The notes beneath the pieces were generated by a model. That model was not told where the DNA came from and ran no database searches. It saw only the letters and a program-made list of their open reading frames with translations. Position numbers and translations under genes: made by a program. DNA of 42,007 bases. Origin: a bacterium (GTDB lineage: Bacteria > Actinomycetota > Acidimicrobiia > Acidimicrobiales > Bin134). Of the stretch, positions 7,577 through 11,034 are shown piece by piece (position 1 is the stretch's first letter; every line of letters starts with the position of its first letter). Location of the stretch: the NCBI GenBank assembly GCA_026709025.1, contig JAPOTT010000050.1:29857-71863 (forward strand), given 5' to 3'.

Positions 7577-7670
7577 TGTACCCCATAACCTAGCTATCCC
7601 CAAAAGCGTCACAGCAGATGCATAGTATGGAGCGTGTCAAGTGCTAAAACACATACACAAGGAGGTTTTG

Positions 7671-8456
7671 ATGAAACCAGATTTCACAGCCGACAAGGTT
7701 GAGCTTTACAACGCAGACAGTCTGACGTGGATGGGCAAGGTGTCGGCTGAACATCCCGGCGGCCTTTTCGACATGATCTTCGCCGACCCCCCGTATTTCC
7801 TCTCAAATGGAGGGATCACCTGTCAGGCGGGTCAGATGGCCAGCGTACACAAGGGAGATTGGGACAAGTCTCAAGGACCTAAGGAAAACCATGAGTTCAA
7901 TGTGAACTGGATCGGGCTATGTCAGCACCTGCTAAAACCAAACGGCACGCTTTGGGTATCTGGCACCCATCATGTGATCCACTCAGTTGGATACGCTATG
8001 CAATGCTGTGGCATGAAAATCTTGAACAGCATCACATGGGAAAAACCCAATCCCCCTCCTAACCTGTCGTGTCGTTACTTTACCCACTCCACTGAGACGG
8101 TGTTATGGGCAGCCAAGACCAAACGCTCTAAGCACATTTTCAATTATCAAGATATGCGTACTGCCAATGGTGGCAAGCAGATGAAGAGTGTGTGGCGATA
8201 TACCCCGCCCGCTAAATCTGAGAAGGCTTTTGGCAAGCACCCAACCCAGAAACCTTTAGGTCTTCTAGATCGCATAATCCTTGCGTCTACTAACCCCGGA
8301 GATAGGGTATTCGATCCGTTTGCTGGCTCAGCAACAACAGGCGTATCGGCCATTGCTCATGGCCGCCATTTCACAGGCTGCGAAGCAGACTCAGATTACT
8401 TTTCCCTCGCGGTGAAGCGTCTCTCAAGCATAATCCCAAAGCAAGCAGTAGCATGA
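7671..8456 (+). CDS. DpnA-like adenine-N6 DNA methyltransferase
   Basis: A 261-residue beta-class site-specific DNA methyltransferase. Catalytic motif IV is DMIFADPPYFLSNGG near residue 30, and the SAM motif DPFAGSATTG comes near the C terminus; this order defines the beta class. Recalled similarity to the second methylase of the DpnII system (DpnA) is strong: GDWDK, LSCRYFTHSTETVLWA, KQMKSVW and KHPTQKP are shared. GATC specificity is therefore plausible but inferred. The ATG at 7671 has a perfect AAGGAGG (7659-7665) five bases upstream, so the longer in-frame start at 7641 is rejected. A TAGTAT box (7625-7630) could be the -10. The next gene overlaps by ATGA and encodes a candidate restriction nuclease. 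Base composition is lower in GC than gltD, which points to transfer. Confidence 0.93.
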   Translation: MKPDFTADKVELYNADSLTWMGKVSAEHPGGLFDMIFADPPYFLSNGGITCQAGQMASVHKGDWDKSQGPKENHEFNVNWIGLCQHLLKPNGTLWVSGTHHVIHSVGYAMQCCGMKILNSITWEKPNPPPNLSCRYFTHSTETVLWAAKTKRSKHIFNYQDMRTANGGKQMKSVWRYTPPAKSEKAFGKHPTQKPLGLLDRIILASTNPGDRVFDPFAGSATTGVSAIAHGRHFTGCEADSDYFSLAVKRLSSIIPKQAVA

Positions 8457-9007
8457 AACAAGGAGGTACAGGCGGCGCAAACACAGGTAGCGGCCTCATA
8501 TTTGAGGACAAAGCTGATCTGTTCAGCACATTCAATGCTACTCCTGGATATTCAATCAGACCGAGAGCAACTAATGACGGATCAGAGGTACTGTATGAAT
8601 TAGAACCTGTGGCACTCTGTTTCAAGAAACACCAGTTCTACAAATATCTGGAAGCACAAGGCGTAGCATGGAAGGACGTACTATCAAAGCGGTTGTTACC
8701 TGATAACGCACTGTTGGTCATTTTTCACAACACCTTATTCATAATTGAAGTGAAGTATCAGGCTGTCGAGGGATCAGTTGATGAAAAATTGCAGACCTGC
8801 GATTTCAAGCGCAAACAGTACACAAAGCTAGTGAAGCCGTTAAACTTGAGAGTTGAATATGTGTATGTGTTGAATGATTGGTTCAAGCAAGATAAATATG
8901 CTGACACTCTAGAATATATCAAGAATGTGGGCTGTAGCTACTGGTTTCAAGAAATACCCTTATCATGGCTTGGACTTCCAGTGGCAGATGAAGTAGAAAG
9001 CCAATAG
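8453..9007 (+). CDS. Probable type II restriction endonuclease, PD-(D/E)XK fold
   Basis: A 184-residue protein overlapping the methyltransferase by ATGA, so translation is probably coupled. It shows P83-D84 then FIIEVKYQ with E99-x-K101, the metal-binding core of PD-(D/E)XK nucleases. This is followed by SVDEKLQT...FKRKQY, a pattern common in small type II enzymes. The N-terminal GGTGGANTGSGLIFEDK segment resembles a glycine-rich start seen in some restriction nucleases; this is from memory. I cannot assign it to DpnII, Sau3AI or another named family, so the recognition site is unknown. Hand GC counts of about 37-45% on sampled lines are the lowest of any gene here. An AAGGAGG at 8460-8466 lies inside the first codons, with no start after it, and is probably incidental. 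Confidence 0.8.
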   Translation: MKQGGTGGANTGSGLIFEDKADLFSTFNATPGYSIRPRATNDGSEVLYELEPVALCFKKHQFYKYLEAQGVAWKDVLSKRLLPDNALLVIFHNTLFIIEVKYQAVEGSVDEKLQTCDFKRKQYTKLVKPLNLRVEYVYVLNDWFKQDKYADTLEYIKNVGCSYWFQEIPLSWLGLPVADEVESQ

Positions 9008-10480: not shown

Positions 10481-10498
10481 CCTCGGCTAGCTAGCCAT

Positions 10499-10550
10499 TG
10501 TACAGGTGAACTGTACAGGTGAACTGTACAGGTGAACTGTGCCGGTTAAC
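10499..10550. repeat. 13-base tandem repeat, three exact copies plus one decayed
   Basis: TGTACAGGTGAAC occurs exactly at 10499-10511, 10512-10524 and 10525-10537, then a diverged copy TGTGCCGGTTAAC at 10538-10550. Each unit opens with the palindrome TGTACA. The array lies just upstream of the alpha/beta hydrolase start and downstream of the candidate RNA. It could be a set of protein-binding sites or slippage debris; nothing decides between them here. Confidence 0.9.
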
Positions 10551-10599
10551 CTTTAGGGCATTGCGACTAGGTGACGTGTGCATAACTCGCCTAAACGCC

Positions 10600-10842
10600 A
10601 AAGAGGCCCCGAGTAGCCTCCCGACAGAGCCGGTCAACTTCTCGGGGCCTTCCCGTCGGCCTCAGCAAAGCAGTGAGCTTTCGCCCTAACTCGCCGAGTC
10701 CTACCTAACAGACAACCGGGCAACAAAACACCCTAGGGGCTTCGGATGGAAGGTGGTGCCACCAGTTTCCTCTACCCACTAAAGCGATCTTGCTAATCAC
10801 GCTATTTCTAACGCCCTAGCACACCTTAGTTGCTGCTAAGCG
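10600..10842 (-). ncRNA. Probable structured non-coding RNA, family unknown
   Basis: A minus-strand transcript of about 240 bases is suggested by a TTGACA-16-TAGAGT promoter (10875-10848) and a GC-rich terminator-like stem (10650-10604). Between them, reading 5' to 3', are: a hairpin CTTAG/CTAAG (10840-10825); a two-part stem TGCTA/TAGCA with inner CGTTA-GAAA-TAGCG (10821-10791); a nested hairpin GGAA..GGTG-GCAC-CACC..TTCC; ACTC-GGC-GAGT; and GGGC-GAAA-GCTC (10686-10675). Two GAAA tetraloops are typical of folded RNAs. No open reading frame of note lies in it. I see none of the conserved signatures of RNase P RNA, tmRNA, SRP RNA or the common riboswitches. It may be a free small RNA or the leader of the alpha/beta hydrolase gene that starts about 120 bases further on. 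Confidence 0.55.
10604..10650 (-). terminator. Terminator-like hairpin of the candidate RNA
   Basis: Ten perfect base pairs join AGGCCCCGAG (10650-10641, minus strand) to CTCGGGGCCT (10613-10604), with a 27-base loop and a short CTTT after it. The T-run is weak. A competing pairing CCGACGGG (10659-10652) with CTGTCGG-type bases (10628-10621) crosses this stem, so the two form a switch or a pseudoknot. Confidence 0.5.
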
Positions 10843-10847
10843 TGGTC

Positions 10848-10875
10848 ACTCTAGCGCCTGATATGGCCCTGTCAA
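10848..10875 (-). promoter_or_regulatory. Sigma-70-type promoter on the minus strand
   Basis: A perfect TTGACA (10875-10870) is separated by 16 bases from TAGAGT (10853-10848) on the minus strand. The predicted transcript start is near 10841. This is the best full two-box promoter seen in the window, and it does not point directly at a protein start. Confidence 0.6.
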
Positions 10876-11034
10876 GCCCAAAAATAAAATCCACAGGGTT
10901 ATCCACTGCTGCGAGCAGAAATCCCCAGAAACCTAGTGTCGTGTATTAGGTTTAGCGCCACAGTTTGTGACGGTAGCAGCAGGTCTTGTGCTGTGCAGGG
11001 TTGATCGTTGCGCTTATATCGTTGAGTATTGCAC
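10876..11034. other. Gene-free stretch with one DnaA-box-like site
   Basis: This is the rest of the 554-base gap between the alpha/beta hydrolase and the phosphodiesterase gene. It holds TTATCCACT at 10899-10907, one base off the DnaA-box consensus TTATCCACA, and a small hairpin CTGCT-GCG-AGCAG at 10906-10918. I see no gene, and no cluster of boxes that would suggest an origin. Confidence 0.4.

Follow-up and report, generated by a model that had tools for sequence, protein, structure and literature searches.

A predicted stand-alone RNA with a conserved 3' hairpin, uncatalogued in Rfam and spread through the class Acidimicrobiia

Stand-alone RNAs that are conserved across a class are few, and several have central jobs. 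Bacteria of the class Acidimicrobiia (sponge symbionts as well as soil, marine, and groundwater members) have hardly been studied by RNA methods, and we know of no 6S, Ms1, or CoRP RNA among them. Ms1 is known by its HAD-hydrolase neighborhood and by its binding to the core of RNA polymerase; its Streptomyces form, Ms1/scr3559, is ∼230 nt, and the main text of the paper that describes it makes no mention of Acidimicrobiia (PMC9130861). The CoRP RNA of Corynebacterium, at 516 nt, has tRNA genes on its flanks and is cut in two; it shows that RNAs binding RNA polymerase in Actinobacteria can be of similar size yet unrelated (PMC11077062).

The window is the whole analyzed stretch of 42,007 nucleotides from an Acidimicrobiales genome (2.2 Mb, 56 contigs), and its flanking open reading frames (ORFs) leave a gap at positions 10481–11034. 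A first-pass annotation had proposed that the minus strand of this gap holds an independent structured RNA with its own promoter and no Rfam signature, a proposal that is strongly supported by conservation, covariation, the promoter, and scans with Rfam. On the strength of these comparisons, the locus is very likely a gene for a stand-alone, trans-acting noncoding RNA. The predicted family is uncatalogued in Rfam and, judging by its homologs, is spread through the class Acidimicrobiia. The predicted features of the locus are:

10919–10927, minus strand: upstream box 1, TGGGGATTT, 52 nt before the -35 element (start to start)
10897–10906, minus strand: middle repeat, GTGGATAACC, DnaA-box-like, from an alignment of 21 loci
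10887–10895, minus strand: upstream box 2, TGTGGATTT, 20 nt before the -35 element (start to start) and 32 nt after box 1
10870–10875, minus strand: -35 element TTGACA, of which TTGAC is kept across the family
10848–10853, minus strand: -10 element TAGAGT, which is TATGGT in most same-genus relatives
10600–10841, minus strand: the RNA, ∼240 nt, with a start near 10841 inferred from the promoter and a 3' end inferred from the hairpin
10833–10840, minus strand: 5' arm of P1 (CTTAGCAG), pairing with 10711–10704, with compensatory changes in the genus alignment
10704–10711, minus strand: 3' arm of P1 (CTGTTAGG), partner of 10833–10840
10791–10821, minus strand: P2 arm with GAAA loop, differing in length between species and very short in L004 and L007
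10725–10790, minus strand: P3 arm, a hairpin within domain 1, from the fold and the genus alignment
10752–10763, minus strand: GGTGGCACCACC hairpin tip, near-invariant in 20 genus members
10659–10700, minus strand: domain 2 hairpin with a GNRA loop, GAAA in the window and GCAA in most same-genus relatives
10602–10655, minus strand: domain 3, the 3'-terminal hairpin CCCCGAG R AGYYGA ... GAGGCT A CTCGGGG, hallmark of the family

Known RNA families do not account for the locus. The Rfam scan that the first-pass annotation had proposed returned no family match in the window or region; with Rfam 15, there are zero matches in the window at the curated gathering score, and the best score in the region is far below the cut-off. 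Scans of 16 relatives yielded no relevant match, only chance matches (F6 and EBv-sisRNA-2). The genome has its RNase P RNA on contig C27, its tmRNA on C32, and its SRP RNA on C45, all above the cut-off, and the RNA locus is on contig C30. The 6S RNA model (RF00013) recovers nothing from the genome at E ≤ 10 but does match in eight control genomes. No report of an Acidimicrobiia RNA was found in the literature searched, in which published catalogs of candidate RNAs were judged mainly via Rfam. A protein-coding reading is disfavored: only ORFs of 20–56 amino acids cross the region, and both the compensatory substitutions and the variation in length speak against coding.

The promoter region of the RNA is conserved in sequence and spacing. 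As first annotated, the minus strand has TTGACA at 10875–10870, a 16-nt spacer, and TAGAGT at 10853–10848; a promoter scan recovers this pair with 10 of 12 consensus matches, and the region has two promoter-like sites versus 0.4 in shuffles. Across the order, a TTGAC promoter and two TGKGGATTT-like boxes 32 nt apart are conserved. In most order members, the counterpart of box 1 is 52–53 nt and that of box 2 is 19–21 nt before TTGAC, and this spacing is the same even where at least ∼550 nt separate TTGAC from the 3' hairpin. Most members outside the order have TTGAC promoters that lack the boxes. In the window, the two boxes and the middle repeat form a set of three DnaA-box-like repeats upstream of the RNA promoter (10887–10927, minus strand), of which the outer pair keeps its spacing order-wide; the middle repeat reads GTGGAAAACC in most same-genus relatives, and GTGGATAACCCTGTGGAT has exactly one occurrence in the whole genome. 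The boxes resemble DnaA boxes, a resemblance that we treat as a lead only. A regulator site used genome-wide was rejected: the joined motif occurs once in the genome, and of two near matches, one is inside a GAPDH-like ORF and the other has no such context. Two further features of the window are a perfect tandem array at 10499–10540 (TGTACAGGTGAAC, 3.2 copies), positioned between the RNA and the hydrolase ORF, and, at 7641–9007 on the plus strand, a probable small restriction-modification pair made up of an N6/N4 DNA methyltransferase and, after it, a protein that weakly matches PD-(D/E)XK nucleases.

The predicted fold is unusually stable and is supported by compensatory changes. Positions 10845–10595 fold at -116 kcal/mol versus -93 (SD 4.7) in shuffles (z = -4.9), with none of 200 shuffles equally stable. 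The 5' domain is closed by P1 but branched and is followed by two further hairpins, and no single rod brings the 5' and 3' ends together. Stems read from the window at first pass recur in the analysis of its minus strand, namely the GAAA-capped hairpins CGTTA-GAAA-TAGCG (10813–10800) and GGGC-GAAA-GCTC (10686–10675) and a perfect 10-bp GC stem (AGGCCCCGAG, 10650–10641, with CTCGGGGCCT, 10613–10604). The genus alignment (20 sequences) has 82 pairs with 95.6% of cells paired; except for the 3' hairpin, the alignments that test the structures are also those from which they were predicted, which favors them in a slid control. In this alignment of homologous regions, compensatory changes support the stems, with 12 pairs changed on both sides versus 3.2 in shuffles that preserve column make-up, not relatedness (0 of 500). 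The arms of P1, for example, are CUUAGCAG/CUGUUAGG in the window and CUGAUCAG/CUGAUUGG in L004. Domain 1 could not be aligned across families.

Conservation within the family is highest in the 3' hairpin, internal loop included. Its consensus, CCCCGAGRAG...RGGCTACTCGGGG, is built of a variable outer stem, CCCCGAG, a purine facing A, AG pairing with CU, and a variable upper stem and loop, followed by GGCUACUCGGGG. A GA/GA tandem mismatch is frequent, being called automatically in 38 of 72 distinct hairpins. Across 43 distinct hairpins, 90.2% of cells are paired versus 34–53% with slid partners, and 62 cells are changed on both sides versus 26.6 (SD 3.9) in shuffles (0 of 500). The first-pass annotation took this hairpin for a terminator. 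The stem is there, but the T-run is merely TTT, a terminator scan makes no call, and a T-run is absent after the hairpin of many members, such that "terminator" is at most half the story. In locus L024 (1380–1560, minus strand), the hairpin and its flanks are duplicated in tandem ∼98 nt apart, with decay in the 3' arm of the second copy.

Homologs are common in the genus and extend well beyond it. The RNA is single copy in its own genome, and homologs were found in 19 of 21 other same-genus genomes, all 19 with the promoter region and 3' hairpin at consistent spacing. The window RNA is a divergent member, with 68% identity to L002 over its whole length. One same-genus homolog is on a contig of Candidatus Poriferisocius aerobius, from which we infer that the window comes from a sponge-associated lineage of Acidimicrobiia. 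The pattern CCCGAGRAGN{12,32}RGGCTACTCGGGG of the hairpin, searched across 84,980 species, retrieved 66 stretches, where one to a few chance matches are expected by rough estimate. Their titles are Acidimicrobiia, Acidimicrobiales, Acidimicrobiaceae, Actinomycetota/Actinobacteria/Actinomycetes, "marine group bacterium Sva0996", a named Candidatus species, and plain "bacterium" (three), and none of the 66 names another phylum. With a covariance model, the hairpin was found in at least 49 of 246 genomes of the class, including families outside the order (L159–L170), and scored in at least 15 of 40 high-quality genomes from the order. Because the candidates scored per genome were limited in number, these counts are lower bounds and absence is uncertain.

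The family probably reaches another class of Actinomycetota, to judge from covariance-model matches in a few genomes of other classes. Loci L131 and L133, from one genus, are convincing and have the same promoter and a closed 5' domain. L134 is plausible, with a compensated change of GAG/CUC to AAG/CUU, and a search of its class found no convincing second member. Weak matches that look unrelated were left uncounted: L137, L138, L140, and L141 are plain palindromes or loose matches, and in L132, L139, and L143 the hairpin is right behind the promoter without the GGCTACTC arm. The latter three, from another Actinomycetota family, share a related-looking hairpin directly behind a TTGAC promoter at ∼1501–1555 (GAGAGGCAG ... 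GAGGUUUCUCGGGGCAC in L139 and L143), possibly a separate conserved leader or small RNA.

Lengths of the RNA, counted from promoter to hairpin, vary greatly. The window RNA is ∼240 nt and those of its genus are ∼217–274 nt, the shortest forms are ∼149–152 nt (L078 and L184), and long forms are ∼560 nt in two large groups and ∼720 nt in L092/L105. In the long forms (∼560–725 nt), short stems are numerous and end in C(GNCG)G, UUCG, and GNRA loops. Folds of the two long groups, likewise predicted from the alignments on which they are tested, have 190 and 189 pairs, of which 16 and 55 have changes on both sides versus 7.4 and 31.6 in shuffles (0 of 300 each). In L063, L068, L070, L077, L096, and their relatives, several stems 5' of the 3' hairpin share the unusual loop C(GNCG)G as GACG, GCCG, or GUCG.

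Genes next to the RNA differ among lineages. GDPD (upstream, same strand) and pyruvate kinase (opposite strand) are kept beside the RNA in many genera. The alpha/beta hydrolase gene is downstream mainly in the window's own genus and a few others (L019/L182, L024, and L072), and in L121/L148, of the same genus, the RNA has no adjacent hydrolase and is followed by GltD on the opposite strand. Elsewhere, the adjacent gene encodes a methyltransferase (L078, L115, and L129), a polyphosphate kinase (L065 and L104), an amine oxidase (L093 and L105), or yet another protein. A UvrD-type helicase follows the RNA in L086, L108, L160, L162, and L169, and complete ORFs among these also encode an HRDC domain. 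No constant link to one downstream gene or pathway was found across the lineages compared.

A trans-acting RNA that is part of a ribonucleoprotein is the best reading of these patterns because the kept internal loop with covarying helices resembles a protein-binding site and the body tolerates insertions. Under this model, a sigma-A-type promoter preceded by the two conserved boxes would drive the RNA, and the boxes may, speculatively, set its expression by growth state. The transcript would fold into a P1-closed 5' domain, a middle hairpin, and the 3'-terminal hairpin. The internal loop of the last (R/A mismatch, AGYY/RGGCU, and often tandem GA/GA) would bind a conserved protein, and the hairpin would also shield the 3' end and aid termination. 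The 5' part, variable between lineages, would serve as a scaffold or decoy. Two observations fit an independent trans-acting RNA less well: few RNAs with a single function vary so much in length, and only 15 of the 40 well-assembled order genomes scored in one covariance-model search, a count that is itself a lower bound.

RNA polymerase, or speculatively some other component of the transcription machinery, is favored as the partner because the class has no known 6S-type RNA. In this special case of a trans-acting RNA, the family would be the Acidimicrobiia counterpart of 6S, Ms1, and CoRP and would bind RNA polymerase, regulating it by growth phase, an idea that we regard as possible but doubtful. 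Like 6S RNA, the window RNA is of the fitting size class, single copy, and under its own conserved promoter, and the genome has no detectable 6S; unlike 6S RNA, its architecture has a separate 3' hairpin. It resembles Ms1 (Mycobacterium Ms1/MTS2823 and Streptomyces scr3559) as a free-standing structured actinobacterial RNA of ∼230–300 nt that is variable in length and undetectable by sequence between distant genera, and Actinobacteria use lineage-specific RNA polymerase-binding RNAs with little shared sequence (PMC9130861, PMC11077062). However, Ms1 lies beside a HAD-hydrolase gene, whereas GDPD, pyruvate kinase, hydrolase, methyltransferase, UvrD-type helicase, or polyphosphate kinase genes were found beside the RNA here, and no 6S-like rod joins its ends in the predicted fold. 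CoRP is also a lineage-specific structured RNA, and at ∼500 nt is comparable with the long forms, a likeness drawn from the published description; it differs in its tRNA-gene flanks and cleavage into two parts.

The long forms alone recall OLE, GOLLD, and ROOL, which are large, many-stemmed noncoding RNAs of unknown or scaffold function. The family could then be a large ornate RNA that self-assembles or is tied to a membrane or other large complex, with the window copy as a reduced form. Forms of ∼560–725 nt with many short stems under C(GNCG)G, UUCG, and GNRA loops are consistent with such a type, but no Rfam covariance model of OLE, GOLLD, or ROOL matches, the RNA is limited to Acidimicrobiia and near relatives, and forms of 150–250 nt, the window's included, would miss most of such a structure. 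We consider this explanation unlikely.

That only the 3' hairpin matters, as a class-specific transcription terminator or RNA-end element, is very improbable. No other part of the RNA comes close to it in conservation, and it has a tandem copy in L024, yet its own genome has one copy, which is linked to the promoter; the internal loop is kept, the outer stem covaries, the promoter boxes are conserved, and the rest of the RNA also covaries. Neither the own genome, the species-wide scan, nor the covariance-model search of the class revealed the hairpin behind many unrelated genes of one genome.

The first-pass annotation offered a leader of the alpha/beta hydrolase gene (10480–9755) as an alternative. 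Such a leader, acting in cis as a riboswitch or attenuator, is the hardest reading to credit and is excluded as a general function by the changing neighbors: the RNA is on the same strand ∼120 nt upstream of the TTG-started hydrolase ORF, and a hydrolase follows in most same-genus genomes, but L121/L148 keeps the RNA without it and other or opposite-strand genes are downstream in most other genera. The pairing proposed at first pass as a possible switch, of 10659–10652 with 10628–10621 across the terminal stem, is present in the window but not conserved, with an A-C mismatch in 19 of 20 aligned sequences (all but the window; seven homologs read directly and the rest from a pair-type count).

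We have thus described a strongly conserved predicted RNA that is absent from Rfam, in a group without a recognized 6S or Ms1 RNA. Its nearly fivefold range in length around a fixed 3' hairpin represents a natural experiment on what the RNA requires, and the hairpin model and promoter boxes make the RNA directly testable. We tentatively suggest, at somewhat less than even confidence and from comparative sequence evidence, that it may be an old, undescribed class of RNA in Acidimicrobiia and neighboring Actinomycetota, in which a constant 3' hairpin would bind protein and the body would range from 150 to more than 700 nt, and that would serve a housekeeping role such as control of RNA polymerase without 6S or as part of a new ribonucleoprotein.
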